From: Prosthecobacter sp.
GTDB taxonomy: Bacteria > Verrucomicrobiota > Verrucomicrobiia > Verrucomicrobiales > Verrucomicrobiaceae
Direction: 5' to 3'
DNA length: 64,000 nucleotides
NCBI GenBank assembly: GCA_021733925.1
Contig: JAIPJY010000030.1
Span: 1-64,000, forward strand
Part shown: piece by piece, positions 23,921 to 37,434 of the stretch
Position numbering within the stretch: the stretch's first letter is position 1
Layout of the letters: every line of letters starts with the position of its first letter
Made by a program: the position numbers and the translations under genes
The notes under the pieces: generated by a model
Databases searched by the model: none
What the model saw: the letters and a program-made list of their open reading frames with translations, nothing else
What the model was told of the DNA's origin: nothing

Positions 23921-24016
23921 TATAAACCAAGGCTTATCATCCGCAAAACAATTTTATAGATATTATTAATTTTGCTTTATTTTAATGCAGAATATATCAA
24001 CTCTGATATGAGTACC
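23921..24016 (-). promoter_or_regulatory. AT-rich spacer upstream of wecB
   Basis: This 96-bp gap is dominated by A and T in an otherwise GC-rich region, with a TATAAT on the minus strand at 23919-23924 abutting the first wecB ATG. If that is the minus-10 box, translation would begin at the ATG at 23911 or later. No hairpin terminator for the upstream gene was seen. Confidence 0.35.
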
Positions 24017-25267: not shown

Positions 25268-25391
25268 CCGGTATCCTCCGCCTCTGAGGGGCGTTTTGTC
25301 AAAAGAACATTCCCTCTGCGGCTGAACTGCTCCTTGCGCTCCAGCGCTCTGCATCCATCAATCCTACCCACCCAAATCCCCTCCCCCGACC

Positions 25392-26309: not shown

Positions 26310-26326
26310 TCAGAGGTCGGCGCAGC

Positions 26327-26932
26327 CTAGACCTCAAACACCCCCGTGCCGCCTGCGAGAAACATCTCCCAGTCGCGCACCCGGTGATGGTTCTTGATGA
26401 GATGCGTCACAGGGATCTCACGCGGAACGACCGGACGACGCAGGAGCTTCAGACCTGCCTCCTCAGGCAGTTTGCTGCCCTTGCGGCTGTTGATCTTGCG
26501 ATCCGCCAGTACGCAGTTCTCCCAGTTACTCGCGCCTCCGCGAGACACGGGTATGATATGATCAATGTTGCCCTCATGCGGACGCAGCTTGCGGCCCGTG
26601 TACTGGCACATGCCCCCATCGCGTTCCCAGATCGCCTTGGCGCAGAATTTAGGACGGCGCTTGGGCACTTTGTCAAAACGGGCCAGCACCAGAACCGAGG
26701 GCACACGCACCGGACCGTGCACGGTGCCAATGCTGTTGTCTCCTTCGCGCACATCCAGTTTCAGCCAGTCCTCCCAAGTCACGGGTCGCATGTCGCCAGC
26801 TTCGTGAATATCGAGCGCGGTCGCATTGCCCGCCGCCATCATGCTAAAGGACTCAATGGGCGTTTTCGAGTCGATGGCCTGCCAGTGCCGATTCAGCACC
26901 AGTACGGTCGTTTTGGTCAACGTTTCATTCAT
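26327..26932 (-). CDS. HNH endonuclease (McrA-like), copy 1
   Basis: 201 residues from ATG 26932. N-terminal conserved block TVLVLNRHWQAIDSKTPIESFSM, then CQYTGRKLRPHEGNIDHIIPVSRGGASNWENCVLA with the HNH core (DHIIP ... N), one Cys of a possible zinc knuckle, and a RKGSKLPEEAGLKLLRRP tail. It is closely similar along its length to the protein at 27101-27685 with a C-terminal GGTGVFEV extension, so the two are tandem duplicates. A hairpin terminator separates them, so this copy probably has its own promoter. Confidence 0.88.
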   Translation of the reverse strand: MNETLTKTTVLVLNRHWQAIDSKTPIESFSMMAAGNATALDIHEAGDMRPVTWEDWLKLDVREGDNSIGTVHGPVRVPSVLVLARFDKVPKRRPKFCAKAIWERDGGMCQYTGRKLRPHEGNIDHIIPVSRGGASNWENCVLADRKINSRKGSKLPEEAGLKLLRRPVVPREIPVTHLIKNHHRVRDWEMFLAGGTGVFEV

Positions 26933-27066
26933 GCACAGCTCCTGAGTTGGGAATTTCGGCACGAAGGAACTTACACGCTTGGTGATCGTTCCTTGATGTT
27001 GGGCCACTATGCTGGCGAGTCTTGGCCGTTTGCCAAGTGCCAAGATCGTTTCTCGGCCCTGAAAAG

Positions 27067-27096
27067 CCAAAATGCCGCCGGGTTGCCCCGGCGGCA
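27067..27096 (-). terminator. Hairpin terminator after HNH copy 2
   Basis: Just past the HNH stop on the minus strand is a perfect 9-bp GC stem (arms 27074-27082 and 27087-27095, GCCGCCGGG/CCCGGCGGC) followed by TTTTGGCTTTT. It would end the transcript carrying the tRNA array, nucleotidyltransferase, rtcB and HNH copy 2. The T-tract is interrupted, so efficiency may be partial. Confidence 0.7.
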
Positions 27097-27100
27097 CAGG

Positions 27101-27685
27101 TTATTTGGCTAGAAACATCTCCCAGTCCCGCACCTGATGCGTGTTGCGGATCAGGAGGGTCACGGGCAGTTCTCGTGGCACGGCAGGTCTTCGCAGCAGC
27201 TTCAAACCGGCTTCTTCAGGCAGTTTGCTGCCTTTGCGGCTGTTGACCCGCTTGTCGGCGAGGACGCAGTTGTCCCAGGACGTGGGTCCGCCACGGGAGA
27301 GCGGCACGACGTGGTCGATGTTCCCCTCGTGAGGGCGCAGCTTGCGCCCGGTGTACTGGCACAGCCCACCGTCCCGTTCCCAGATGCCACGCACGCCAAA
27401 CTTGGGCCGTTTCTTCGGCACTCTGTCATAGCGGGCCAGCACCAGCACGGAAGGCACGCGCACAGGACCATTCACGGTGCCGATGGCGTTGTCGCCCTCA
27501 CGCACCGGGAGTCCCAGCCATTCCTTCCATGTCACCGGACGAATGTGGCCGTCCGTTTCGATGTCGAGCGCTGTAGCAGCGCCGGTCGCGATCATGCTAA
27601 AAGCCTCCAGCGGCGTTTTCACGGCGATGGCCTGCCAGTTGCGGTTGAGCACCAGGACGGTGGATTTGGTGAGGAGGTCTTTCAT
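27101..27685 (-). CDS. HNH endonuclease (McrA-like), copy 2
   Basis: 194 residues. The same architecture as its neighbour: TVLVLNRNWQAIAVKTPLEAFSM, CQYTGRKLRPHEGNIDHVVPLSRGG, NCVLADKRVNSRKGSKLPEEAGLKLLRR. HNH motif intact. It starts 21 bp after the rtcB stop with a purine-rich GAAGGG just before ATG, so it belongs to the rtcB transcript. HNH genes have been reported next to tRNA arrays elsewhere; whether this one cuts DNA of a competitor, helps mobility, or cuts RNA is not known. Confidence 0.9.
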   Translation of the reverse strand: MKDLLTKSTVLVLNRNWQAIAVKTPLEAFSMIATGAATALDIETDGHIRPVTWKEWLGLPVREGDNAIGTVNGPVRVPSVLVLARYDRVPKKRPKFGVRGIWERDGGLCQYTGRKLRPHEGNIDHVVPLSRGGPTSWDNCVLADKRVNSRKGSKLPEEAGLKLLRRPAVPRELPVTLLIRNTHQVRDWEMFLAK

Positions 27686-27706
27686 ACCCTTCTTAAAGTT
27701 CGTTTT

Positions 27707-28963
27707 TCAATCTTCTGCTTTCTCTCCAGCCGGACACATCTTGACGATGCGTGGCTCAAACTTGCCGAGGACTTCGACAAGATCCTGCTGTGCGGCCATG
27801 ACGCTGTGGATGTCTTTGTAAACACCCGGCACCTCATCAAGACCGGCACTGAGCAGCTCGACCCCAGCGGCGGCGAGCTGCCTCTTCACATTGCCCCAAG
27901 CGAAGCTCTGCAGCGCCTGGCTCCGGCTCATCACACGGCCTGCGCCGTGAGAGGCGCTGTGGAGTGAATCGGGATTCCCCTTGCCACGCACCACAAATCC
28001 AGGCGTCGCCATCGAGCCAGGGATCACCCCCAGCACACCCGCCCCTGCAGGTGTCGCACCTTTGCGGTGCACAATGACTTCGCGTGATTCGCCGTTCACC
28101 ACATGCGTTTCCTTCCAGGCAAAGTTGTGGTGGTTCTCGATGTCGAGGATGACATGACCACCGACCTTCTTCGCGATGTGCTGGTGGATGAGAGCATGAT
28201 TCGCCGCCGCATAGCGCCCCATGAGGTTCATGGCCGCCCAGTATTCCTGACCGGCCTCTTCCTCAAAGGTCAGCCACGAGAGGTGCTTCATCTCCTTCGG
28301 CAAATCGTCACGGCGCTCCACAGCGATGCTGCTGTAGTGCTGGCAAACCTGCGCCCCCGCACCGCGCGAACCGCTGTGCGAGAGCAGTGCGATGTACTCG
28401 CCCGGCGGGATGTCGAAGCCCGACTCCTTCAACGCGACGCTATCATCTGCCGACACGCTGAATGAGCCAAACTCCACGAAGTGGTTTCCCGAGCCGCTGG
28501 TGCCAAGCTGCGCCCACGCCTTGTCTTTGTGACGACGGGTGATCGGAGACACGCTCCAGTCCTCGTCCATCACATCGTGCTGGCGGCGCTGCTTGAATTC
28601 ACAGCCCATGCCAAAGCGGGTTTCGCTTTCGATGATGTTCGCCAGCCGGTCCTTCTGACCCGCGATGGTGCTCGCCTTGCGGTCATAGACCGTAAGGCGC
28701 ATGCGGCACGCAATGTCCACACCGACGGCATAGGGGATCACACAGCCCTCGGTCGCCAGCACACCACCAATCGGCAGGCCGTAACCCAGGTGAGCATCCG
28801 GCATGAGAGCCCCCGCCACGGAGACCGGCAGCGCACAGGCGTTCGCCATCTGCTGCACCGCACCCGCTTCGAGTCCGACTCCCCACTGATGCCAGGGCGC
28901 GAGCACGTCTCGCTGCTTATAGGCAGGTTCATCGTGATCGCTGATAATGTCTTGAGTTTGCAT
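27707..28963 (-). CDS. rtcB: RtcB-family RNA ligase
   Basis: 418 residues from ATG 28963; an upstream in-frame ATG at 29062 would translate through a hairpin. Catalytic and Mn-binding segments are intact: MPDAHLGYGLPIGGV, YAVGVDIACRM (metal Cys), GTSGSGNHFVEFG, LLSHSGSRGAG, ENHHNFAW, HRKGATPAG and the guanylated His in LHSASHGAGRVMSR. RtcB joins 2',3'-cyclic-phosphate or 3'-phosphate ends to 5'-OH ends, as in tRNA splicing and repair of nuclease-cut tRNA. No rtcA or rtcR is nearby. The same-strand tRNA array upstream makes tRNA the obvious substrate. Confidence 0.92.
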   Translation of the reverse strand: MQTQDIISDHDEPAYKQRDVLAPWHQWGVGLEAGAVQQMANACALPVSVAGALMPDAHLGYGLPIGGVLATEGCVIPYAVGVDIACRMRLTVYDRKASTIAGQKDRLANIIESETRFGMGCEFKQRRQHDVMDEDWSVSPITRRHKDKAWAQLGTSGSGNHFVEFGSFSVSADDSVALKESGFDIPPGEYIALLSHSGSRGAGAQVCQHYSSIAVERRDDLPKEMKHLSWLTFEEEAGQEYWAAMNLMGRYAAANHALIHQHIAKKVGGHVILDIENHHNFAWKETHVVNGESREVIVHRKGATPAGAGVLGVIPGSMATPGFVVRGKGNPDSLHSASHGAGRVMSRSQALQSFAWGNVKRQLAAAGVELLSAGLDEVPGVYKDIHSVMAAQQDLVEVLGKFEPRIVKMCPAGEKAED

Positions 28964-29017
28964 AATGGTTTTAAATTGGGCACGATCTTCCCGGCAGCGG
29001 TGTTCGTTCTTTGGAAT

Positions 29018-29052
29018 GCAGCCAGGGAGGAGTTGCACTCCTTCCTGGCTGC
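29018..29052 (-). promoter_or_regulatory. Long hairpin in the rtcB leader with a T-loop-like tip
   Basis: In the 109-bp gap before rtcB, a 35-nt inverted repeat forms a 9-bp outer stem, one mismatch, a 5-bp inner stem and a 5-nt loop TGCAA. The tip GAGTGCAACTC is identical to the T-arm tip of the array's Leu(CAA) tRNA, and the TGCAACT text recurs in the T-loops of Arg(TCT) and Met. No T-tract follows, so it is unlikely to be a terminator. It may be a processing site, a stabiliser, or a decoy site for a tRNA-binding protein. Confidence 0.55.
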
Positions 29053-29072
29053 CGTTTCGCATGTGTGATCCC

Positions 29073-29849
29073 TCAGGCGCTCAGAGCATACCGGCGGAAG
29101 AAGATGTCGAGTTCATCCATGTCACCCATCACGTCCTCGGGATCGTTCAGCGCTTTGAGCCTCTGCAGTTCTGTGACAATGAAACGCGAAAGTACTTCAT
29201 CCGGCGCAGACTTGCCGAGTTCATCGCCAGCCTTTTTGCGGGCGACGAGCACAGCCAGTGCGTCGCGGACCTCTCGCTCATCAAGAACAGCATCGACCAA
29301 GTCCTGAAAGATCATCGGCACCTGGCCAAGCGAACGCTCGATCCAGCGGCACGCCAGCAGCGGCCGGAGAACGTAGAGATATTTTTTCAGGCTGACCTGA
29401 TCCCTGCCCTCCAGATAGCTCTTCCAGTTGCCGGACGCCATGTGCAGGTAGTGTGCAAAGCAGCGACGCGGCGAATAAAACATCCCCGCCAGTTCCTCGA
29501 ACTCCTGGGTGAAGATCGGATCATGATGATACACCACCGGGGACTTCATCCATTCAAGCAGTGGCGGATTGCTTTTCCGCAGAAGCCGCAGCGCCTTGCG
29601 CAACTCCCAGCCGCTCACATCGAGTCCATCGCTGAGAGGCTCCTCGATCACATCGCGCCGACTCTCGATGGAGAGATACCATTCGCGGCGATGCACGTAC
29701 AGAAAGCGCACATCATAGTCGCTGTCGTGCGAGGCAAAACCCCAGGCACGACTGCCGCTTTCGCAGGCATAAAGCACACGAACGTCCTGCTCTGCTTCGA
29801 GTCGGTTGAGCGCACCGCGCACACGTTGGGATACATCATTGGTTTTCAT
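29073..29849 (-). CDS. Nucleotidyltransferase (COG3541, YcgL-like)
   Basis: 258 residues. The minimal polymerase-beta-fold motif is intact: ESGSRAWGFASHDSDYDVRFLYV, with GS followed by DxD (SDYDV). The remainder (DVIEEPLSDGLDVSGWELRKAL, NPPLLEWM, RPLLACRWIE) matches the predicted nucleotidyltransferase family COG3541. AAGGA lies 8 bases before the ATG, a good ribosome site. It starts 41 bp downstream of the CCA end of the last tRNA. Family members are seen with rtcB in RNA-repair gene neighbourhoods; possible roles are tRNA-end nucleotide addition or nucleotidylation of a partner. Confidence 0.85.
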   Translation of the reverse strand: MKTNDVSQRVRGALNRLEAEQDVRVLYACESGSRAWGFASHDSDYDVRFLYVHRREWYLSIESRRDVIEEPLSDGLDVSGWELRKALRLLRKSNPPLLEWMKSPVVYHHDPIFTQEFEELAGMFYSPRRCFAHYLHMASGNWKSYLEGRDQVSLKKYLYVLRPLLACRWIERSLGQVPMIFQDLVDAVLDEREVRDALAVLVARKKAGDELGKSAPDEVLSRFIVTELQRLKALNDPEDVMGDMDELDIFFRRYALSA

Positions 29850-29890
29850 GGGAGATTTCCTTTGGGGTGAATATTGAGATTGAAATGAAA

Positions 29891-29965
29891 TGGTCGGTCC
29901 ACAGGGACATGCACCCTGCTATGCCGGTTAAAAGCCGGCTGCTTCGCTGTCTAAGCTTTGGACCG
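29891..29965 (-). tRNA. tRNA-Lys (TTT)
   Basis: Acceptor CGGTCCA/TGGACCG, A73, encoded CCA. Anticodon stem GCCGG, loop CTTTTAA. T-stem CAGGG with loop TGCATGT; D-loop contains ACAGCG. Last gene of the array, 41 bp before the nucleotidyltransferase start. Confidence 0.9.
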
Positions 29966-29968
29966 TGT

Positions 29969-30107
29969 TGGTGCTCACAGCGGAACGCCATGCGCGGAAG
30001 CGCACGGTTCCACGCGAAGCCTTTTTGCGTAGGCTGCACAGCAGCCAACTCGCACCCGCACTGGCGACGTTCTCGACGTCGTGCCTCTGCTGTTGGGCTA
30101 CATGAGC
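29969..30107 (-). tRNA. tRNA-Leu (GAG) with 63-nt T-loop insertion
   Basis: 139 nt. Acceptor GCTCATG/TGTGAGC, A73, CCA. Anticodon stem CGACG, loop TCGAGAA (C at 33, anticodon GAG). Short variable loop, unusual for Leu. The T-stem GCGGG/TCCGC closes a 70-nt loop (29985-30054) beginning TGCGAGT instead of a 7-nt loop. The anticodon reading is less certain because position 33 is C. Confidence 0.7.
29985..30054 (-). repeat. Expanded T-loop with insertion, copy 1
   Basis: Loop of exactly 70 nt between the two T-stem arms; 63 nt more than normal. It folds into a 6-bp hairpin (GGCTGC/GCAGCC) and a second hairpin (TGCGC/GCGCA). It aligns with the loop at 30402-30471 over most of its length. Either a spliced intervening sequence or a short palindromic mobile repeat. 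Confidence 0.8.
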
Positions 30108-30114
30108 ATTGAAT

Positions 30115-30191
30115 TGGCAACCCTGGCGGGATTCGAACCCGCAGTGATCCGATAGAAAGTCGGATGTCTTATCCAGTTAGACGACAGGGTC
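30115..30191 (-). tRNA. tRNA-Glu (TTC), canonical loops
   Basis: Acceptor GACCCTG/CAGGGTT, G73, CCA. Anticodon stem TCCGA, loop CTTTCTA. This is the only member with both a normal T-loop (TTCGAAT) and a normal D-loop with GG (AACTGGATAA). Confidence 0.92.
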
Positions 30192-30199
30192 ATTGAAAA

Positions 30200-30293
30200 T
30201 GGCGGAACGCCGAGGACATGCTCCTCATGCCGCACGATGGCGGCACGATCTTGTTAGCAACAAGTCCCGGTTCGCTGGCCCGGTTGACGTTCC
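30200..30293 (-). tRNA. tRNA-Ser (GCT)
   Basis: 94 nt, class II. Acceptor GGAACGT/GCGTTCC, G73, CCA. Loop TTGCTAA. Long variable arm (TGCCGC/GCGGCA). T-loop AGCATGT with a 5-bp stem whose outer pair is weak; D-stem CCGG/CCGG with CCAGCG in the loop. Confidence 0.85.
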
Positions 30294-30302
30294 TTGATGA
30301 AG

Positions 30303-30378
30303 TGGCACTCCCGGAAGGACTTTCGCCTACAACCTCCGCGTTCGAAGCGCGGTGCTCTATACATTGAGCTACGGGAGC
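30303..30378 (-). tRNA. tRNA-Arg (TCG)
   Basis: Acceptor GCTCCCG/CGGGAGT, G73, CCA. Anticodon stem CCGCG, loop CTTCGAA. T-stem GTAGG/CCTTC has one mismatch and loop CGAAAGT, neither the normal TTC type nor the array's GC type. Confidence 0.85.
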
Positions 30379-30385
30379 ATTGAAT

Positions 30386-30524
30386 TGGTGTCTCCGGCAG
30401 GAACGCCATGCGCGACAGCGCACGATTAAAAGCGAAGCCTGACTGCGTAGGCTGCGCAGCAGCCAATCGCACCTGCGGCCTGCTGATTCGTAATCAGCCA
30501 CACTCTCTATTGAGCTACGGAGAC
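30386..30524 (-). tRNA. tRNA-Arg (ACG) with 63-nt T-loop insertion
   Basis: 139 nt. Acceptor GTCTCCG/CGGAGAC, A73, CCA. Anticodon stem GCTGA, loop TTACGAA. The T-stem GCAGG/CCTGC is perfect and encloses a 70-nt loop (30402-30471) starting TGCGATT. Everything else is a normal cloverleaf. Confidence 0.88.
30402..30471 (-). repeat. Expanded T-loop with insertion, copy 2
   Basis: Again exactly 70 nt between T-stem arms. It shares with copy 1 the GGCTGCTG-GCAGCCTACGCA segment, AGGCTTCGC, and the TGCGC/GCGCA hairpin followed by ATGGCGT. The middle (about 10 nt after AGGCTTCGC) is diverged, arguing for selection on ends and hairpins or for relatively recent common origin. Confidence 0.8.
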
Positions 30525-30532
30525 ATGCAGAG

Positions 30533-30605
30533 TGCCTGCGGCGAGAGTTGCACTCGCACTTTGCCGGTTTTGAACCGGCAGTCTCTGCTGTTGGACTACG
30601 CAGGC
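30533..30605 (-). tRNA. tRNA-Leu (CAA), short variable loop, no encoded CCA
   Basis: Acceptor GCCTGCG/CGCAGGC, A73, followed by CTC instead of CCA. Anticodon stem GCCGG, loop TTCAAAA. Variable region only AAAGT. T-stem GCGAG, loop TGCAACT; D-loop ACAGCA. The only member without a CCA end. Confidence 0.82.
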
Positions 30606-30611
30606 ATTAAA

Positions 30612-30686
30612 TGGTGCCCATGGCAGGACTCGCACCCGCACTGGACCGCTTCTGAGGCGGTTGTCTCTGCATTGGACTACATGGGC
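30612..30686 (-). tRNA. tRNA-Leu (CAG), short variable loop
   Basis: Acceptor GCCCATG/CATGGGC, A73, CCA. Anticodon stem ACCGC, loop CTCAGAA. Five-nt variable loop rather than the long arm normal for bacterial Leu. T-loop TGCGAGT. Confidence 0.86.
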
Positions 30687-30693
30687 ATAAAAC

Positions 30694-30769
30694 TGGCAGC
30701 CTCGGGTGGATTCGCACCACCAACCCTCTGCTTCAAAGGCAGATGCTCTGACTGTTGAGCTACAAGGCT
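30694..30769 (-). tRNA. tRNA-Gln (TTG)
   Basis: Acceptor AGCCTTG/CGAGGCT, G73, CCA. Anticodon stem TCTGC, loop CTTTGAA. T-stem GGTGG, loop TGCGAAT. D-loop AACAGTCA. Confidence 0.9.
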
Positions 30770-30778
30770 GTTTTGAAA

Positions 30779-30854
30779 TGGTCGGTCCGGCTGGAGTCGC
30801 ACCAGCACCTTCCGGGTTATGAGCCCGACGCTCTGACTGTTAAGCTACAGACCA
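30779..30854 (-). tRNA. tRNA-Met (CAT), initiator-like
   Basis: Loop CTCATAA on a stem ending in GGG/CCC, the three G-C pairs typical of initiator tRNA. Position 1-72 is a weak T-G pair, reminiscent of the initiator's mismatch. A73, CCA. T-loop TGCGACT. Initiator identity is inferred from these two features. Confidence 0.8.
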
Positions 30855-30860
30855 ATGAAA

Positions 30861-30936
30861 TGGTCGGATACCCCGGTGCTGCCCCGGGCGCCTCTTGGTC
30901 CCAAACCAAGTGAGTTCGCTGGCTCTCTCGTATCCG
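30861..30936 (-). tRNA. tRNA-Pro (TGG)
   Basis: Acceptor CGGATAC/GTATCCG, A73, CCA. Anticodon stem CTTGG, loop TTTGGGA. T-stem CCCGG, loop GGCAGCA. D-loop AGCCAGCGAA. Confidence 0.9.
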
Positions 30937-30945
30937 ATGAAATGA

Positions 30946-31020
30946 TGGACGTGCGCCCCAGACTTGCACTGGGTAATGCGGTTTTGCGGACCGCTGACTC
31001 GGCTCTTTGTCTTGCGCACG
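30946..31020 (-). tRNA. tRNA-Cys (GCA)
   Basis: Acceptor CGTGCGC/GCGCACG with U73, the main cysteine identity base, then CCA. Anticodon stem GCGGT, loop CCGCAAA, so position 33 is C instead of the near-universal U. T-stem CCCAG, loop TGCAAGT. Confidence 0.86.
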
Positions 31021-31028
31021 AAATGAAA

Positions 31029-31102
31029 TGGTTCCCTCAGCCGGTTCTGCCCCGGCACCGCTTCGTTCACAACGAAGAATGCTGCTGTTACACTATGAAG
31101 GG
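31029..31102 (-). tRNA. tRNA-His (GTG)
   Basis: Anticodon stem CTTCG, loop TTGTGAA. T-stem GCCGG, loop GGCAGAA. A73 and CCA. The encoded base before position 1 is A, not G, so the usual G-1:C73 histidine identity pair is absent, and 1-72 is C-A. Charging by a normal HisRS is questionable. Confidence 0.85.
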
Positions 31103-31112
31103 TGTGTTGAAA

Positions 31113-31188
31113 TGGATCCTCCGGTGAGATTCGCGCTCACATAAACCTGTTTACAAGACAGGTGCCTTTCTCTGTCGGCCACGGAGGA
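31113..31188 (-). tRNA. tRNA-Thr (TGT)
   Basis: Acceptor TCCTCCG/CGGAGGA, U73, CCA. Anticodon stem CCTGT, loop CTTGTAA. T-stem GTGAG, loop CGCGAAT. D-loop with ACAGAG. Confidence 0.9.
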
Positions 31189-31197
31189 GTTTGAAAA

Positions 31198-31271
31198 TGG
31201 TGCGGCATGTCGGTGCTGCCCCGACGTGATGAGTTTGGAAGACTCGCATGTTACTGTTACATCAATGCCGC
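31198..31271 (-). tRNA. tRNA-Gly (TCC)
   Basis: Acceptor GCGGCAT/ATGCCGC, A73, CCA. Loop CTTCCAA with a C-A mismatch at the top of the anticodon stem. T-stem GTCGG, loop GGCAGCA. D-loop AACAGTA. Confidence 0.87.
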
Positions 31272-31278
31272 AATAAAC

Positions 31279-31353
31279 TGGCCGCTGGAGTGGGTAGCGC
31301 GCCCACCTCTGCGGATCTTCAATCCGCCGCTCATCTGTCTGAGCCATCCAGCG
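31279..31353 (-). tRNA. tRNA-Phe (GAA)
   Basis: Acceptor CGCTGGA/TCCAGCG, G73 (A is usual), CCA. Anticodon stem GCGGA, loop TTGAAGA. T-stem GTGGG, loop CGCGCTA. D-loop with ACAGAT. Confidence 0.88.
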
Positions 31354-31368
31354 TGTGTTAAAAATAAA

Positions 31369-31442
31369 TGGTCCCTCGGCGTGGTGACGCTCCACGGTCT
31401 TCCGGTTATCGACCGGGTGCTCTGCTGTTGAGCTACAGAGGG
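31369..31442 (-). tRNA. tRNA-Ile (GAT)
   Basis: Acceptor CCCTCTG/CCGAGGG with one T-C mismatch, A73, CCA. Loop TCGATAA, again with C at 33. T-stem CGTGG, loop AGCGTCA. D-arm GCTC/GAGC with AACAGCA loop. Confidence 0.84.
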
Positions 31443-31455
31443 ATTGTGAATAAAT

Positions 31456-31545
31456 TGGCGGAGCACCAGAGAATCGCACTCTGGACGCCTTTGCGGGGCG
31501 CAGCGGTTTTCGGGACCGTTTCCTCGTCTATGCCGGACGTGCTCC
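31456..31545 (-). tRNA. tRNA-Ser (CGA)
   Basis: 90 nt, class II. Acceptor GGAGCAC/GTGCTCC, G73, CCA. Loop CCCGAAA (C at 33). Variable arm CGCC/GGCG. T-stem CAGAG, loop TGCGATT. Confidence 0.85.
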
Positions 31546-31553
31546 GTTGAAAA

Positions 31554-31631
31554 TGGTACCCGCACCAGGAGTTGCACCTGGAACCACGGCCGTTAGAAGC
31601 GGCGTATGCAATGCTGTTACACCTTGCGGGC
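31554..31631 (-). tRNA. tRNA-Arg (TCT)
   Basis: Acceptor GCCCGCA/TGCGGGT, A73, CCA. Loop CTTCTAA. T-stem CCAGG, loop TGCAACT. D-loop AACAGCAT. First gene after the MFS interruption in the direction of transcription. Confidence 0.87.
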
Positions 31632-31763
31632 ATGAAAAGTCTTGGCACAAGGCTGTGGTTTGCGTCACATAAGCCGCATGAGCCTTCGATGTGATCAAGA
31701 GGACGCATTTGCACGCAGTGACACTGTGAGATGCGGTGAAAGCTCAGACCTTCCACTGCCATC
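31632..31763. promoter_or_regulatory. Spacer between tRNA-Arg and the divergent MFS gene
   Basis: 132 bp with no tRNA that I can fold. It must contain the MFS promoter on the plus strand and could contain an internal promoter for the downstream 19 tRNAs on the minus strand. No convincing minus-10/minus-35 pair could be assigned by eye. Confidence 0.3.
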
Positions 31764-32963
31764 GTGAAATCCGCATCCTCCACCCGCCTGCTGCTGATCA
31801 TCGCCTATCTGGGCTTCATCAGTCTTGGATTGCCAGACACCCTCATCGGCGTGGCCTGGCCCTCCGTGCGAGATGGCTTTGGCAGGCAGCAAGGGGATCT
31901 GGCGTGGATTTTCTTCGGCACGGGGGCCAGCTACTTTCTTTCAGGCATGGTCACCGGTCGGCTTCTGAATCGCTACGGCATCGGCCTGCTGCTAGCAGGC
32001 AGCAGTTTGCTGGTCGCCGTCAGCGGCTTTGGATATGGCACGGCGTCTCTTTGGATACTGTTTGCCAGCTGCTCTTTGTTGCACGGCCTGGGTTCAGGAG
32101 CGATCGACACCGGGCTGAACCACTATGTGGCTCATCATTTCTCAGCGCGGCACATGAACTGGCTTCATGCATGCTACAGCATCGGCGCCACACTGGGGCC
32201 TCTGATCATGACCACCATGCTGGTAAGCCTGAACTCATGGCGTGCGGGCTACCTCACAGTGGCCACATTGCTGCTGCTGCTCACGTTGCTGTTTGCCTTC
32301 ACGCGGCGAAATTGGGACGCATCTCCCAAGGCGGGAACAGAGCCGGAGGTCAAAGAAGCGACCGCAGCTCTCAACACGCTGGATGCTTTGCGGAGCGGTG
32401 TGGTCTGGATGCAGATCGCACTCTTTTTCATTTACACGGGTCTGGAAGTGACTGTGGGCCAGTGGAGCTTCACACTGCTGACAGAATCTCGAAGCATCGG
32501 CAAAGAAACGGCCGGACTCTGGGTCACCTTGTATTGGGCAAGCATCACCACAGGTCGCATTCTCTTCGGCTTTGTGGTGGATCGGCTGGGCATCGACCGT
32601 CTGCTACGACTCAGCATGCTCGGCGTTGTCACGGGCCTGATACTCTTTGCACTGAATGGACCGGCAATGCTTTCCGCTTTCTCGCTCTCGCTCACAGGTC
32701 TTGGCCTCGCTTCCATTTTTCCGTGTCTCATGACACGAACCCCTCAGCGCATGGGCAAGGCGAGAGCAGCACACGCCATCGGCTTTCAAGTAAGCGCGGC
32801 CATGATCGGTGCAGCCGTCTTTCCCAGCGCCTGTGGCTGGCTGGTCCAGCGCTCAGGGCTTGAGCTGGTGGCAAGCATGGCCCTGATCATGGGCATCACA
32901 ATGCTGATACTGCATGAGATGCTGCTGCGTTGGGATGCAAGAAGCGCCAGATCTACTTTATAA
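31764..32963 (+). CDS. MFS transporter, inserted in the tRNA array
   Basis: 399 residues, twelve hydrophobic segments. MFS signs: LGLPDTLIGVAWPSVRDGFG in the first loop, GRLLNRYGIGLLLAG (motif-A-like) and WASITTGRILFGFVVDRLGIDRLLR after the central loop. The type resembles FucP/sugar or drug-like facilitators; substrate unknown. Its stop codon ends 2 bp from the CCA end of tRNA-Asn on the other strand, so array read-through would be antisense to the whole gene. It has no visible relation to tRNA function and may be a later insertion. Confidence 0.85.
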   Translation: MKSASSTRLLLIIAYLGFISLGLPDTLIGVAWPSVRDGFGRQQGDLAWIFFGTGASYFLSGMVTGRLLNRYGIGLLLAGSSLLVAVSGFGYGTASLWILFASCSLLHGLGSGAIDTGLNHYVAHHFSARHMNWLHACYSIGATLGPLIMTTMLVSLNSWRAGYLTVATLLLLLTLLFAFTRRNWDASPKAGTEPEVKEATAALNTLDALRSGVVWMQIALFFIYTGLEVTVGQWSFTLLTESRSIGKETAGLWVTLYWASITTGRILFGFVVDRLGIDRLLRLSMLGVVTGLILFALNGPAMLSAFSLSLTGLGLASIFPCLMTRTPQRMGKARAAHAIGFQVSAAMIGAAVFPSACGWLVQRSGLELVASMALIMGITMLILHEMLLRWDARSARSTL

Positions 32964-32964
32964 G

Positions 32965-33037
32965 TGGCTCCCCAGCGTGGACTCGCACCACGACGATCGG
33001 CTTAACAGGCCGACTGGCTACTTTACCTCACTGGGGA
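32965..33037 (-). tRNA. tRNA-Asn (GTT)
   Basis: Acceptor TCCCCAG/CTGGGGA, G73, CCA. Anticodon stem TCGGC, loop CTGTTAA. T-stem CGTGG, loop TGCGAGT. Short D-loop AAAGTA. Confidence 0.9.
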
Positions 33038-33046
33038 TTTTAGAAA

Positions 33047-33120
33047 TGGTGGACGAGGACGGTAACGCTCCGTCTCTTACCGGGTGCAAACCGGTCGTGC
33101 GACTTTCACACTCCAAGCCC
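33047..33120 (-). tRNA. tRNA-Ala (TGC)
   Basis: The acceptor GGGCTTG/CTCGTCC carries the G3-U70 wobble pair that defines alanine identity, but also two mismatches (5-68, 6-67). A73, CCA. Anticodon stem ACCGG, loop TTTGCAC. T-stem GACGG, loop AGCGTTA. Confidence 0.85.
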
Positions 33121-33129
33121 TTTGGAAAT

Positions 33130-33206
33130 TGGCGGTCCGTGCGGGCTTTGCTCCCGCGACCCTCCGCTCGACAAGCGGGCGCTCTGCTGAACTGAGCTAA
33201 CGGACC
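33130..33206 (-). tRNA. tRNA-Asp (GTC)
   Basis: Acceptor GGTCCGT/ACGGACC, G73, CCA. Loop TTGTCGA. T-stem GCGGG, loop AGCAAAG. The D-loop AGTTCAGCA is near the standard form but with CAG where GG should be. Confidence 0.9.
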
Positions 33207-33213
33207 TTGAAAT

Positions 33214-33286
33214 TGGACGCAGGGGATGGAGTTGCACCAACCAAGACAGGCTTATGAGACCCGTCAGAGCACTGGCTCTCCCTGCA
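33214..33286 (-). tRNA. tRNA-Met or Ile2 (CAT)
   Basis: Acceptor TGCAGGG/CCCTGCG, U73 (atypical for Met), CCA. Loop CTCATAA on a stem with two wobble pairs and no GGG/CCC. D-arm GAGC/GCTC with only a 4-nt loop. T-loop TGCAACT. Elongator Met versus lysidine-modified Ile cannot be decided. Confidence 0.78.
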
Positions 33287-33298
33287 GTTTTAAAAAAA

Positions 33299-33385
33299 TG
33301 GTGCGGCGTCACGGTAATGCTCCGTGTGGGCTCGCAAAGCACTGGAGTTACAGTCCAAGTCGCCTCTTTAACGATCTACCGCCGC
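33299..33385 (-). tRNA. tRNA-Tyr (GTA)
   Basis: 87 nt with a 15-nt variable region, as expected for bacterial Tyr. Acceptor GCGGCGG/ACGCCGC (7-66 mismatched), A73, CCA. Loop CTGTAAC. T-stem CACGG, loop AGCATTA. Confidence 0.86.
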
Positions 33386-33404
33386 GTTCTTGATTTGTAT
33401 CAAA

Positions 33405-33479
33405 TGGCACGGCGGGTGGGTACTGCCCCCACATCTTCGGGTTTTGGAGACCCGTGCATTGCTTGTCTGCCACCGCCGT
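33405..33479 (-). tRNA. tRNA-Trp (CCA)
   Basis: Acceptor ACGGCGG/CCGCCGT, G73, CCA. Anticodon stem CGGGT, loop CTCCAAA. T-stem GTGGG, loop GGCAGTA. First tRNA of the array in transcription order. Confidence 0.9.
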
Positions 33480-33496
33480 ATTGGAAATCTTACCGT

Positions 33497-33616
33497 TCTG
33501 CCATTCAAGGACACGGAGGCGGCCATTCACCACTCTCTCCCACAGAGTATCACACCACAGTGCCACGCTCCGCGCCCTTGAATGGCAGATCAGCCTCGTA
33601 TTGAGGTGATCTGCCA
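33497..33616. promoter_or_regulatory. Inverted repeats upstream of the tRNA array
   Basis: A perfect 14-bp inverted repeat (33497-33510 and 33576-33589, TCTGCCATTCAAGG and its complement) flanks a 65-bp centre. The inner arm overlaps a second hairpin, 33583-33616, with a 10-bp stem TGGCAGATCA and an inner CCTC/GAGG. The motif TGGCAGA thus occurs three times within 120 bp just upstream of tRNA-Trp. This could be an operator or a structured leader controlling the array. Confidence 0.5.
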
Positions 33617-33660
33617 AATAAAGAACGAACACCGCTGCCACGCACGGGATGGAGTGAAGA

Positions 33661-33831
33661 TCACCTCATCGCTGGCGTCGCACCCGCAGGTATTTCACGG
33701 CGGATGTTTCGGTGTTTATGGCACACCTCCCAGGGAAGCCGTTTCGTGATGTCAAAATGGGACAGTAATTCCCCGCATTCCTCGCCTCGGCGTAGGAATT
33801 TCGCGTATTTGAAGACTGCTTCAGTTGACAT
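33661..33831 (-). CDS. Possible small protein upstream of the array
   Basis: A 56-codon frame (MSTEAVFKYAKFLRRGEE ... PAGATPAMR) from ATG 33831, with no recognisable ribosome site and no family I know. Charge pattern and absence of low-complexity bias make it slightly better than random. It reads toward the tRNA array and ends 182 bp before tRNA-Trp, so it could be a leader gene or simply part of an untranslated leader. Confidence 0.3.
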   Translation of the reverse strand: MSTEAVFKYAKFLRRGEECGELLSHFDITKRLPWEVCHKHRNIRREIPAGATPAMR

Positions 33832-33916
33832 TCGGTAGGAGGGTGCAACCCTGTGTTCAGGTCTTGCTCTGGCGTTTTCTAAACGACTCCTCCCGGAGTC
33901 AGCTTGGCTTGCCTTG

Positions 33917-33951
33917 CCCCGGTGTCCGTTAGCGCGGATGCCGGGGTTTTT
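33917..33951 (+). terminator. Rho-independent terminator, plus strand
   Basis: CCCCGG ... CCGGGG outer stem with an inner GTCCG/CGGA(T) stem around TTAG, followed by TTTTT at 33947-33951. Points to a plus-strand transcript ending here; the nearest plus-strand gene is the MFS gene a kilobase upstream, so either its mRNA runs antisense to six tRNAs or an unannotated RNA lies between. Confidence 0.7.
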
Positions 33952-34041
33952 CATGCTAGGGGGGAAGCGGTCAGATGACCGCAGGTTGATTCAATAGTTT
34001 TGGAAAATGGGTAAGTGGTTCGTTTCGCTGCAAAAAGAAAA

Positions 34042-34076
34042 AAGCCCTGCCGCCTTGGAGTGGGCGAGCAGGGCTT
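34042..34076 (-). terminator. Rho-independent terminator, minus strand
   Basis: Nine-bp stem AAGCCCTGC/GCAGGGCTT followed on the minus strand by TTTTTTCTTTTT. It ends a minus-strand transcript that starts somewhere below about 34384, i.e. the small frame at 34101-34265 or a non-coding RNA. Confidence 0.75.
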
Positions 34077-34100
34077 CCTTCGGAAACTGGCCTTCGGGGC

Positions 34101-34265
34101 CTAATGGGGCGTCAAAGCACCCTGCTCGTTTTGTCTCTTTGTTGGGAGACTCCAATCTTGTGCTGGATAGGCGGGCATAAAACCAAGCCCCAGTCCTACA
34201 CACAAAATCTCTCCCCGACGCTCGGTCAGCGCGGATGAGTTAAGATGTGTCGAATTGGTTTTCAT
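34101..34265 (-). CDS. Possible small protein or ncRNA with its own terminator
   Basis: A 54-codon frame (MKTNSTHLNSSALTERRGEI ...) ending 25 bp before a clear terminator, with an AT-rich stretch upstream (about 34300-34340) that could hold a promoter. No ribosome site and no family match. The same evidence would suit a small RNA of about 200 nt. Confidence 0.3.
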   Translation of the reverse strand: MKTNSTHLNSSALTERRGEILCVGLGLGFMPAYPAQDWSLPTKRQNEQGALTPH

Positions 34266-34384
34266 GGCTTGTATTGAAGGTAACGGATGTTGCCACGGCT
34301 TTCTTGGGCCGTCAACACGATATTCTATATTTTTCTTATCCGACTGAGTTTCATAAGCGCTTTCACACCTAAAACTCCAACACA

Positions 34385-35317
34385 TCACGGAAACGCCTTT
34401 TCCATCGCCTCCACATTCGCTTTCATCACGGTCATGAAATCACCGCTCTCAGGCACGTTGCCGCATGGATCAAAGACAACGCTCTGAAGGCCAAGTCTGG
34501 CGAGCTTATCGACACTGTCCTTGCTGGGTTCACCTTCCCAGATCATCCACCGGGCACGGTGACCAGCGAGTATCTCATTGAGGTCGTTGAGAGCTTTCTC
34601 ATCCAGCACGGTGTCCGGCTCCCAGAGAACAGACTTCACATTCATGCCATAGCGACGTGCAAGATAGTGATAAACTGGGTGCGAGGCCACCAGTGGATGC
34701 TGCACCAGACGGCGGCTCAGCGCGCTCATGCGATCATCGAAAGCCTCCAGTTCATCCTTGAGGGCTTCTGTGTTTTTGGTGATGGAGTCCTTGGCTGCAG
34801 GCACCAGTCCGGCCAGTGCATCACCCACCGCCTGCGCCTGCATGGAGGCCTGCTTGAAATCGATCCAGGTGGTGAATGCTATGCCATTGTGGCTGTGCGC
34901 ACCGCCGGGGCCATGGCTGTGTGTGGAGGCGTCACGAACTTCAATGTAAGTCTTGGAAAAGGAGGCGGAGGTATCGACGACCTTCGACTCCGGCAGCGTG
35001 ACTTTGTCCGCCCACTTGGAGTAATCGGCACCATTCATGAGAATCAGGTCGGCGTTTTGAAATGCCGTGATGGCGGCCTCGTCCGGCTGCCAGAAAGCAG
35101 GATCTTCATCTTTGGGAGCCAGGAAGCGCACATCGACAGCATCCCCCGCGATGCGCTGCGCAAAGTATTGCAGCGGATAGTTCGCCACCAGCACCTGCGG
35201 CTTGCCGGACTTCACAGCTGTTGGAGCCGTTGCGGTCTCAGCCGCTTTTTCCGCTGAGGGTTTGCAACCCGCCAGGACGATGGCGAGGAAGGAGAAGAGA
35301 AGGGTGCGCTTATTCAT
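34385..35317 (-). CDS. Zinc/manganese ABC transporter substrate-binding lipoprotein (ZnuA-like)
   Basis: 310 residues from ATG 35317; signal LLFSFLAIVLAGC gives a lipobox with Cys18. It has the cluster A-I fold: QVLVANYPLQYFAQRIAGD, DLILMNGADYSKW, a His-rich loop (HSHGPGGAHSHNG) and VASHPVYHYLARRYG with the second metal His. The His loop points to zinc. No permease or ATPase genes are adjacent, so it is an orphan here; in PVC genomes this is common. The upstream alternative start adds 11 residues. Confidence 0.85.
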   Translation of the reverse strand: MNKRTLLFSFLAIVLAGCKPSAEKAAETATAPTAVKSGKPQVLVANYPLQYFAQRIAGDAVDVRFLAPKDEDPAFWQPDEAAITAFQNADLILMNGADYSKWADKVTLPESKVVDTSASFSKTYIEVRDASTHSHGPGGAHSHNGIAFTTWIDFKQASMQAQAVGDALAGLVPAAKDSITKNTEALKDELEAFDDRMSALSRRLVQHPLVASHPVYHYLARRYGMNVKSVLWEPDTVLDEKALNDLNEILAGHRARWMIWEGEPSKDSVDKLARLGLQSVVFDPCGNVPESGDFMTVMKANVEAMEKAFP

Positions 35318-35375
35318 ATGAAGGGGAGGTGATTGCATCTGGTAGGGCATCGGCAGTCAATGGCAAACTGACAAT

Positions 35376-36413
35376 TCAGGCACTAAGCCTGAACTCACCG
35401 CGCAGGAGGAGTTCGTTCAATGCCTTACGATACGGCGCTGGCATCGGGGTGGACTCAAGTTCGGCGAAGGGGATCACGCGATGCGTATCAGCCCACTCCC
35501 CTGCCTGCTCATGCGGTTCATGCACCCACAGCGTGACCTTGTAGCGTGTGATGCCGTAATGCATGCGCAGCAATACGGGCGGCGGTGAATCCTCGTGCAC
35601 GGGAGGCAGCGCGGGCAGCTTCCATAGGCCGGTGCGGCGCTTGCCGGTCTCAAGCTCCAGCAGGACCCCCTTACTCGAACGCAAAAAAATGACGCGCTCG
35701 GTCACGGCGGTGATCTGCTGGCGCGCATGCTTCACAGGCAGTGCTTCAGGATCAATCGCACGGCATTGGGCGCGTACCGGGCACAGGTCGCAGGCCGGTT
35801 TCGTCGGCGTGCAGTGTGTCTGCCCGAGTTCCATGAGCGCCGAGTTCAAGGCCCTCGGATCTTCGGTCACTTGCACCAGGGCTTTCGCGCGCTCCCACAG
35901 CAGCTTCGTGCCTGCGGTGGAATCCACCGGCGTGGCATCATTGTAGATGCGCGACAGCACCCGGGCGATGTTGCCATCAACAATGGGTTCCGCGAGACCA
36001 AACGCAAAACTGGCCACCGCCCCAGCCGTGTAGGGGCCGACTCCGGGCAATTCCAGAATGGCCGAGTGCTCCCTTGGGAACTCCCCGCCATGCTGCTCCA
36101 TCACCTCTTGGGCAAGCCGCTGGAGATTGCGCGCCCGCCGGTAGTAGCCGAGACCCTCCCAAGTTTTGAGCACCTCATCTTCACGCGCAGCCGCCAGTGT
36201 CTTGAAATCAGGAAACCGTTCCAGCCAGCGGGCATAGAATCCACGGTCCAGCACCGTCGCGATCTGCGTCTGCTGCAGCATCACCTCGGCAATGAGGATT
36301 GCATAAGGATCGCGGGTGCGCCGCCAGGGATAATCACGCGCGTTATGCCCAAACCAGTTCACAAGCTCCATGGCGATGGCATGGGGGTCCGGCCTGGCTG
36401 TTTGAGAGGGCAT
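35376..36413 (-). CDS. mutY: A/G-specific adenine DNA glycosylase
   Basis: 345 residues. Catalytic and helix-hairpin-helix segments: VMLQQTQIATV, WEGLGYYRRARNLQ, LPGVGPYTAGAVASFAFG with catalytic Asp in PIVDGNIARVL. The 4Fe-4S loop has the C-x6-C-x2-C-x5-C spacing (CTPTKPACDLCPVRAQC). The C-terminal NUDIX-like domain (about 225-340) recognises 8-oxoG. It removes adenine opposite 8-oxoguanine. Confidence 0.93.
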   Translation of the reverse strand: MPSQTARPDPHAIAMELVNWFGHNARDYPWRRTRDPYAILIAEVMLQQTQIATVLDRGFYARWLERFPDFKTLAAAREDEVLKTWEGLGYYRRARNLQRLAQEVMEQHGGEFPREHSAILELPGVGPYTAGAVASFAFGLAEPIVDGNIARVLSRIYNDATPVDSTAGTKLLWERAKALVQVTEDPRALNSALMELGQTHCTPTKPACDLCPVRAQCRAIDPEALPVKHARQQITAVTERVIFLRSSKGVLLELETGKRRTGLWKLPALPPVHEDSPPPVLLRMHYGITRYKVTLWVHEPHEQAGEWADTHRVIPFAELESTPMPAPYRKALNELLLRGEFRLSA

Positions 36414-36486
36414 CGTGCCCTACTTATGAACGATCCGGCGCATTTTTCATGAGTCTTTCGCTTCTCCTGCGATTAAAATCGCGCCC

Positions 36487-37434
36487 ATGCCAGCCCTGAC
36501 TAGTTACACTCACGCGCTCACAGCCAGTCAAGCAGCGAAGCTCCGCACTCTGCTGGAGGAACGCGGCTTTGAGTTTCAAACCAAACCCTACTGCCTCTAC
36601 GCCGCCGCCAAATCAAAGGTGAACGTCTGCGTTTATGAGAAAGGGCCCAAGATCGTCGTGCAAGGCAAGGAGACCGAAGATTTCATCACGAACCTGCTTG
36701 AACCCGAGGTGCTGGGGGAGGCCAAACTCGGCTACGAAGAGGTTCATAATCCCGAGATGTTTCAGCCTCACATCGGTGTGGATGAAAGCGGCAAGGGCGA
36801 CTTCTTCGGCCCCTTGGTTATTGCAGGTGTTTATGTCGATGGCGATGTCACACGCCGCCTGCGAGATGTCGGTGCGGTGGACAGCAAACGCATCAGCAGC
36901 GACGCTCGCATCTATCAAATTGCCGCAGACATCCGCAGCATCCCCGGCCTCGCCTGGGAGGTGATCTCAATTCATCCCGAACGCTACAACGAGCTTTACA
37001 CCAAATTTGGCAATCTAAACCGGCTGCTGGCCTGGGGGCATGCCCGGATCATCGAAAACCTGCTCGAGCGCGTCCCCGGCTGCCAGCGGGCCATCTCGGA
37101 TCAGTTCGCCAATCCCGCCGTGCTGCAGCGTGCCATGCAGACCCGCGGCAGAGAAATCGAACTCGTCCAGCGCACCAAAGCAGAAAGCGACCCGGCGGTG
37201 GCTGCCGCCTCCATTCTGGCACGCGAGGGTTTTGTGGGCTGGCTGAAATCGCAGGGCCAGAAGTTCGGCATGGATTTCCCCAAAGGAGTCTCAGAAGGCG
37301 TGAAGCAAACAGCTGTCAATCTCGTAGAACAGCACAGCAGCAACGTTTTACCGACCCTGTGCAAAATGCACTTCCGCACTTCTTCCGAGGTTCTATCGCG
37401 GATAGTTTCGGATCATCCTAAAAAAACCTACTGA
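36487..37434 (+). CDS. rnhC: Ribonuclease HIII
   Basis: 315 residues. The N-terminal TBP-like substrate-binding domain (about 1-85) precedes the RNase H fold. The signature HIGVDESGKGDFFGPLVIAG gives the D-E-S-G motif of RNase HII/HIII; further acidic residues are in GAVDSKRIS and AISDQF. The N-terminal domain and the DESGKGD(Y/F)FGP form assign it to HIII. It cleaves RNA in RNA/DNA hybrids. Divergent from mutY. Confidence 0.92.
   Translation: MPALTSYTHALTASQAAKLRTLLEERGFEFQTKPYCLYAAAKSKVNVCVYEKGPKIVVQGKETEDFITNLLEPEVLGEAKLGYEEVHNPEMFQPHIGVDESGKGDFFGPLVIAGVYVDGDVTRRLRDVGAVDSKRISSDARIYQIAADIRSIPGLAWEVISIHPERYNELYTKFGNLNRLLAWGHARIIENLLERVPGCQRAISDQFANPAVLQRAMQTRGREIELVQRTKAESDPAVAAASILAREGFVGWLKSQGQKFGMDFPKGVSEGVKQTAVNLVEQHSSNVLPTLCKMHFRTSSEVLSRIVSDHPKKTY

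Follow-up and report, generated by a model that had tools for sequence, protein, structure and literature searches.

Among the systems described so far, the closest to the locus reported here is the stress-induced tRNA operon of Anabaena (Nostoc) PCC 7120, an L-array whose tandem tRNA genes, about 26 in number, are redundant with those of the housekeeping set. The 2021 Nucleic Acids Research paper behind the Anabaena work is said to distinguish two kinds of arrays, the long ones being spread horizontally. The 26 genes of this trn operon stay silent as long as translation is undisturbed; TrcR, their repressor, has rtcB, a slipin gene and HNH genes under its control as well (PMC10272220). Array units of 26-27 tRNA genes with an HNH gene are also present in Mycobacterium and on plasmids (M. 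avium, M. alvei), and those of M. avium, where the HNH gene is conserved, are discussed as putative antidefence elements (PMC12803027). The present subject is an array of 25 tRNA genes for 19 amino acids on the minus strand (29891-33479) of contig JAIPJY010000030.1 of Prosthecobacter sp. (assembly GCA_021733925.1, a 7.3-Mb draft of 127 contigs), of which positions 1 to 64,000 were analysed as a whole and are called the window hereafter (contig C48). The link to RtcB and HNH genes is one of regulation in Anabaena and one of position here, and because these gene partners match the Anabaena regulon well enough, the window is regarded as holding a system of this kind whose elbow, the contact between the D- and T-loops of the tRNA, is a different one.

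The canonical elbow is made of the G18-Psi55 (Psi, pseudouridine), G19-C56 and T54-A58 contacts, and a review of T-loop conservation, whose available part describes G18-Psi55 and some of the background on elbow modification, names no A-G alternative there (PMC7912444). The window array shares with it the seven-base T-loop, the 19-56 pair and a 54-58 pair; however, its 18-55 pair is A-G, and 54-58 is often G-G or A-U. The first-pass annotation of this DNA, made from the letters alone, had noticed GC at T-loop positions 55-56 in 23 members, and the recount agrees, with G55 in 24/25 and G55-C56 in 23/25. It had also noticed AG at D-loop positions 18-19 in nearly all of them, which is seen by eye in 22/25, although the reading is less certain for Ser-CGA, Asn and Tyr due to their irregular D-arms. 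The exceptions are Glu (GG), Leu-CAG (GC) and Arg-TCG (GT), and in the latter U19 could pair with its own A56. Only tRNA-Glu combines G18-G19 with U55-C56, being the one canonical elbow of the 25, as had been annotated. At positions 54/58, the combinations are T/A in 12 (including Glu), A/T in four, G/G in four, C/A in two, and C/C, T/T and A/A in one each.

Regarding the other tRNAs of the genome, 48 matches to RF00005 were obtained, ten on the array contig and 38 elsewhere. The latter are all distinct and carry a TTC T-loop and a GG D-loop in 38/38, so the loops of the array are not those of the housekeeping tRNAs (0/38). These dispersed genes form a complete housekeeping set, with which the array is redundant.

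TruB makes Psi55 from U55, TrmH makes 2'-O-methylguanosine (Gm18) from G18, and the target of TrmA is U54. Because A18-G55 tRNAs have neither U55 nor G18, they would receive no Psi55 by TruB and no Gm18 by TrmH, and where U54 or A58 is lost, its modification is lost too. The first-pass annotation had expected the TruB and TrmA uridines to be missing together; the first is indeed gone in 24/25, but U54 is present in 12 of the 24 G55 tRNAs, so that only the TruB uridine and the TrmH guanosine are generally lost. Similarly, its proposal of a co-ordinated rewiring of both elbow contacts holds for 18-55, which is swapped on both loops, but not for G19-C56, which is kept in 23/25.

Seven of 387 genomes from the phylum were matched in a pattern search: the window genome, four more whose arrays were fetched, and two (G317 and G079) rejected as not tRNA-like by eye. 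Scans with the A18-G55 pattern returned at least 117 stretches of genome contigs and at least 120 of viral contigs. Counting six or more tRNAs as an array locus, the genome-contig matches, the window and the four fetched arrays gave 58 loci, which represent 56 arrays (L054 and L093 lie on one contig, and L108 and L154 are two pieces of another). They hold 870 tRNAs, 827 of them distinct, identical ones being counted once, and removal of the 84 that match the pattern left 743 for counting. Both scans were seeded with an A18-G55 tRNA and the arrays were chosen for having at least one, so these figures are not an estimate of frequency.

The state of positions 18-19 was assigned by a rule on the D-loop string, in which the presence of GG and AG together ("both") is ambiguous. 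Among the 230 U55-C56 tRNAs, the D-loop was GG-only in 184, both in 44, neither in two and AG-only in none; among the 496 G55-C56 tRNAs, it was AG-only in 432, both in 32, neither in 31 and GG-only in one, the rest of the set being 16 G55-A56 tRNAs and one C55-C56. On viral contigs (691 distinct non-seed tRNAs, with L258, L303 and L135 sharing one array), U55-C56 goes with GG in 310, both in 61, neither in two and AG in none, and G55-C56 with AG in 267, both in 24, neither in seven and GG in one. Fisher's test on the unambiguous cells gives a p of about 1e-160, a value that ignores relatedness. The effect of relatedness is partly answered because 22 mixed arrays split alike (G55: AG 139, both 9, neither 11, GG 0; U55: GG 106, both 24, neither 2, AG 0) and because close sister genes from different genomes differ at both loops and hardly anywhere else. 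As an example, the Asp-GTC genes of L094 (loops GTCGGCA and AGCGGAA) and L154 (GGCAGCA and AACAGAA) are changed at both loops and differ at 1 of 44 other positions, and the Arg-TCT genes of L088 and L133, also changed at both, at 3 of 44. A near relative at another locus was available for 765 tRNAs, and for 117 of them it is in the opposite elbow state.

In 13 of the 16 G55-A56 tRNAs, a U can be placed by eye at position 19, which would keep 19-56 as a Watson-Crick pair. The 54/58 combinations of G55 tRNAs (n=512) are T/A 307, G/G 79, A/T 54, C/A 40, C/C 12, A/A 12 and others 8, compared to T/A in 218/230 U55 tRNAs. The 54/58 covariation first noticed in the window is in this way reproduced in hundreds of tRNAs from other arrays, where the matched A18/G55 change recurs as well. 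Rather than decay, the elbow change is the swap of one pair with compensation: 19-56 stays as it was, 18-55 goes from G-U/Psi to A-G, and 54-58 is released but paired anew in matched ways, both loops being changed at once, tRNA by tRNA. The window array belongs to a known type of tRNA array, of which it is a real and strongly covarying variant, and no description of an A18-G55 elbow was found in the literature searched, which did not cover the main L-array paper (10.1093/nar/gkab661) or an RNA-damage survey (10.1093/nar/gkw722).

The array is read, with modest confidence, as a back-up tRNA operon (L-array) of the mobile type, tied to RNA repair and drawing some benefit from the A18-G55 elbow. 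The expression, charging and evasion that we infer go beyond the observed covariation and genomic context. By analogy with the Anabaena trn operon, the array would be switched on as a single transcription unit upon damage to housekeeping tRNAs or a block of translation, and its tRNAs would be charged and keep translation going. Such tRNAs would be non-substrates for TruB and TrmH, folding and working without those modifications, and the new elbow may let them escape nucleases or other factors that recognise the canonical one. The array tRNAs may also be recognised by different partners, as supposed in the first-pass annotation.

The main rival, possible but somewhat doubtful, holds that A18-G55 is an isofunctional elbow reached by drift and kept in some array lineages, with neither evasion nor a change of partners. 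It accounts for swaps occurring tRNA by tRNA and for mosaic arrays, G55 being frequent in Cys, Pro-CGG, His, Ile and Val also where U55 dominates, and for the appearance of A18-G55 in the tRNA-Ala of DPANN archaea, where no array was detected. However, single-sided intermediates are almost absent, and G55 makes up 70 % or more in 39 of the 58 loci, across nearly all isoacceptors, compared to none of the window genome's housekeeping tRNAs; of the remaining loci, five lie at 50-70 % and 14 below 50 %. By title, the G55-dominated loci belong mostly to Verrucomicrobiota, with Planctomycetota (L070, L130) and Chloroflexota/Oscillochloris (L094, L108/L154), and the low-G55 loci include delta/myxobacterial, cyanobacterial, Chloroflexota, actinobacterial and Berkelbacteria entries. 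Besides bacteria, at least one clear phage contig (L303) has an array dominated by A18-G55 tRNAs, with G55 in 29/29 alongside genes for large terminase, portal, head protease, major head protein, RtcB and HNH; phage tRNA arrays resemble that of the window in being large, near-complete sets.

The layout of the locus is that of an L-array, a long tandem set with short spacers (often TTTCA-like) covering most amino acids, with a companion HNH gene, of which there are two. Read from 33479 towards 29891, the array consists of blocks of six and 19 genes, with one MFS transporter gene in the opposite orientation between them (Table 1). No tRNA-Val was found among the 25 genes, which were parsed by acceptor, anticodon and T stems. 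The cloverleaf (7-bp acceptor stem, 5-bp T and anticodon stems, 7-base loops) is uninterrupted in 23 and has an insert in the T-arm in two; acceptor-stem mismatches are seen in Ala, His and Ile. An encoded CCA end is present in 24/25, in two of them after an insert. The Leu tRNAs of the array differ from bacterial tRNA-Leu in being of the class I form, with a short variable loop; this form is found in many array loci, and the long arm is retained in G55 arrays such as L051, L052 and L107.

Table 1. Features of the tRNA array and its neighbours in the window.
Feature	Position	Strand	T-loop	Remarks
tRNA-Trp(CCA)	33405..33479	-	GGCAGTA	
tRNA-Tyr(GTA)	33299..33385	-	AGCATTA	long variable arm
tRNA-Met(CAT) no. 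2	33214..33286	-	TGCAACT	
tRNA-Asp(GTC)	33130..33206	-	AGCAAAG	
tRNA-Ala(TGC)	33047..33120	-	AGCGTTA	G3:U70 kept; two acceptor mismatches (by eye)
tRNA-Asn(GTT)	32965..33037	-	TGCGAGT	
MFS transporter gene	31764..32963	+		splits array in two
tRNA-Arg(TCT)	31554..31631	-	TGCAACT	
tRNA-Ser(CGA)	31456..31545	-	TGCGATT	long variable arm
tRNA-Ile(GAT)	31369..31442	-	AGCGTCA	
tRNA-Phe(GAA)	31279..31353	-	CGCGCTA	
tRNA-Gly(TCC)	31198..31271	-	GGCAGCA	
tRNA-Thr(TGT)	31113..31188	-	CGCGAAT	
tRNA-His(GTG)	31029..31102	-	GGCAGAA	A73
tRNA-Cys(GCA)	30946..31020	-	TGCAAGT	
tRNA-Pro(TGG)	30861..30936	-	GGCAGCA	
tRNA-Met(CAT) no. 1	30779..30854	-	TGCGACT	D-loop AACAGTCA
tRNA-Gln(TTG)	30694..30769	-	TGCGAAT	D-loop AACAGTCA
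tRNA-Leu(CAG)	30612..30686	-	TGCGAGT	short variable loop; D-loop AATGCA
tRNA-Leu(CAA)	30533..30605	-	TGCAACT	short variable loop; no encoded CCA
tRNA-Arg(ACG)	30386..30524	-	TGCGATT	63-nucleotide insert after T-loop, 30402-30464
tRNA-Arg(TCG)	30303..30378	-	CGAAAGT	G55-A56; D-loop AATGTATA
tRNA-Ser(GCT)	30200..30293	-	AGCATGT	long variable arm
tRNA-Glu(TTC)	30115..30191	-	TTCGAAT	sole canonical elbow; D-loop AACTGGATA
tRNA-Leu(GAG)	29969..30107	-	TGCGAGT	short variable loop; 63-nucleotide insert after T-loop, 29984-30046
tRNA-Lys(TTT)	29891..29965	-	TGCATGT	
RlaP (PF10127), RNA-repair-pathway polymerase-beta family nucleotidyltransferase	29073..29849	-		E 3e-89; directly after array
RtcB RNA ligase (PF01139)	27707..29062	-		E 6e-85
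HNH endonuclease 2	27101..27685	-		beside array
HNH endonuclease 1	26327..27097	-		beside array

The array is followed on the same strand by the RlaP, RtcB and two HNH genes. Identity to the proteins encoded at L128 (Prosthecobacter sp.) and L133 (Verrucomicrobia bacterium) is 94 % for RtcB and 87-89 % for RlaP, and a relative of the MFS transporter has its match inside or next to the arrays of L133 and L156. The RtcA cyclase and RtcR regulator of the enterobacterial type are absent from the four genes beside the array, the only neighbours tested. Like RtcB RNA-repair operons, including those with Ro60/Rsr and Y RNA, this locus carries RtcB and RlaP, and its relatives add TROVE and a YrlA-like RNA; unlike them, it is fused to a whole tRNA set with an altered elbow and has no TROVE next door, the sole TROVE (Ro60-like) match of the genome lying away from the array, on contig C89 (70319-70678).

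These partners recur in other loci. With the proteins of the window and L051 as queries (tblastn, 1e-5), 57 array loci gave HNH nearby in 25, RtcB in 13, RlaP in nine, TROVE in 12 and any of them in 32; mostly 8 kb or less was covered per locus, so the counts are lower bounds. As a control, 2 of 44 array-less loci had a match to HNH, RtcB, RlaP or TROVE at 1e-4, and one of these two continues an array contig. The L052 island is ordered as array, HNH, sigma-70, unknown, RtcB, Band_7, DUF4145 and RlaP, and L051 has TROVE inside the array, followed by HNH, sigma-70, AAA and RtcB. Beside another G55 array, in L120, a truncated GOLLD RNA match was seen (6768-7138, minus strand; 97.7 bits, below gathering score and cut at the contig end). 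Three stretches with canonical loops resemble tRNAs and are matched by no more than the inner part of the tRNA model, namely L096 7164-7222 (+), L095 4082-4147 (-) and L120 1125-1190 (-), two of them just after an HNH gene. A defence-system label was rejected, as PADLOC gave only weak Cas9, PtuB and restriction-type matches of the HNH fold; it returned no match for RtcB or RlaP.

The same context could mean that the elbow is a sorting tag within an RNA-repair system, by which Ro60/Y RNA or the repair enzymes of TROVE-linked islands would tell back-up from housekeeping tRNAs and their fragments. Of ten array loci scanned, seven have a match to a YrlA-type Y RNA adjoining TROVE, with a TTCRA T-loop and a GG D-loop in 7/7; within such an island, the canonical elbow is kept by the Y RNA but not by the tRNAs. 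However, these matches come from a permissive Rfam scan and are all below gathering score, neither TROVE nor a Y RNA adjoins the window array, and many G55 arrays are without TROVE in the flanking DNA examined, which makes a sorting tag unlikely.

It is still less probable that the array RNAs are decoys, soaking up tRNA-cleaving or repair enzymes instead of serving translation, even though some members carry inserts and the discriminators of Gly, Phe and His are unusual. As seen by comparison with the usual bacterial discriminator bases, G55 tRNAs have T in 26/27 Cys, G in 18/18 Asp, and A in 35/35 Pro, 70/70 Leu and 25/25 Ile, with Asn and Trp also conserved; G3:U70 is kept in 21/22 array tRNA-Ala, and the sets are near-complete in amino acids. 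The A18-G55 elbow is also present in 8/8 tRNA-Ala genes read (six distinct, three anticodons) from three DPANN metagenome-assembled genomes, two titled Micrarchaeota and one Candidatus ainarchaeum (loci L076, L113, L189, L192, L194, L198), compared to 0/23 distinct non-Ala tRNAs of the same genomes, these counts resting on 30 of 94 matches fetched. Since these genes appear to make up the main Ala set there, this suggests that the A18-G55 elbow supports translation.

Regarding detection, a custom tRNA finder that does not require U55 was used, and it made no call in the rest of the window outside the array. ARAGORN reported 9/25 of the window array, and Rfam at gathering score 11/25; across the array loci, ARAGORN recovered 371/638 G55 tRNAs and 230/231 U55 tRNAs. 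The 267 G55 tRNAs missed, against one U55, and the two interrupted genes of the window would suit pseudogenes or wrongly folded reads, with loops made by relaxed selection, but random, unpaired loop changes would then be expected, and in view of the two-sided covariation, of stem mismatches about as few as in U55 array tRNAs, and of three calls, none G55, in 481,044 bases of reversed array-locus sequence, this explanation is dismissed as very improbable.

The insert that interrupts tRNA-Arg(ACG) and tRNA-Leu(GAG) follows T-loop position 60 in both, the copies being 84 % alike. It was ruled out as a dispersed genome repeat, because only the array copies match in the source genome (two matches at E 0.01). 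Among 59 genomes of the family, its own included, seven have matches, all of the same genus. Seven matches outside the window were viewed: five (L215, L216, L219, L220, L221) lie in a tRNA-like T-arm at the same spot, L217 in the apparent anticodon arm of a Ser tRNA, and L218 in no recognised tRNA. In other genomes of the genus, similar inserts occupy this place in the genes for tRNA-Arg(TCT), tRNA-Met and tRNA-Gly(TCC). The insert may be a repetitive extragenic palindromic (REP)-like element with a preference for array tRNAs, because its copies are mostly in tRNA T-arms at one spot, or else an intron-like piece beside an RtcB gene.

Several points weigh against reading the array as a back-up operon that benefits from its elbow. 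In the source genome, not every member need be functional, because two tRNAs hold the insert and Val is missing, and similar inserts are present in the array tRNAs of relatives. The discriminator of G55 tRNA-Gly is A73 in 33/37 and T in 4/37, as opposed to U73 in 7/10 U55 array tRNA-Gly and in the host's two tRNA-Gly with a readable end, and those of Phe and His are mixed among G55 array tRNAs. No elbow-reading nuclease was identified, the PADLOC matches being weak and of HNH type, and neither a YrlA match (Rfam, 24000-37000 of the window) nor a TROVE gene adjoins the array. As for mobility, relatives of the array are found on plasmids, phages or other mobile DNA, and no plasmid or phage gene was identified in the window itself; a search for distant DNA similarity in plasmids and phages with the window array gave only short tRNA-level matches, and of 11 HNH-anchored plasmid regions, seven are without an array.

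It also counts against the benefit from the elbow that an L-array does not need the swap. Arrays reached without the G55 pattern, via the HNH protein or DNA similarity, have G55 in 5/110 tRNAs (L040 0/27, L202 1/21, L206 2/22, L207 2/18, L211 0/22), and the M. alvei array (L040) is, unlike that of the window, U55 in 27/27. Two other Nostoc plasmids with HNH-anchored arrays have two A18-G55 tRNAs each (Glu-CTC and Ile-GAT), with an AG D-loop in 4/4 G55 tRNAs, but U55 in 20/22 and 16/18, compared to G55 in 24/25 here. The cultured phages CcrColossus, CcrBL10 and DSS3_MAL1, with large tRNA sets, are canonical as well (U55 in 60/61). The exception is an unannotated tRNA-Phe-like gene of Caulobacter phage CcrColossus (L343, 13820-13894, plus strand) with A18-G55 among 22 U55 tRNAs. 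Because unseeded arrays and these phages are mostly canonical, the swap is a trait of certain lineages, not of arrays in general.

As a stronger and only tentative form of the back-up operon proposal, A18-G55 might be a second, orthogonal elbow code that marks a complete alternative tRNA set, borne by phages and RNA-repair islands. This set would go on translating while canonical G18-Psi55 tRNAs are destroyed or withheld, as attackers, Y RNA/Ro60 and the modification machinery would read the canonical elbow.

In practice, standard gene finders miss many A18-G55 tRNAs, and because ARAGORN missed so many more of them than of U55 tRNAs in the same loci, such sets are under-annotated. The G18-Psi55 contact has been treated as near-universal, and whole natural tRNA sets with a matched swap show that the elbow can be rebuilt. 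These sets are natural test molecules for the needs of TruB, TrmH and the factors that read the elbow, and they point to a tRNA-level layer of phage-host conflict.

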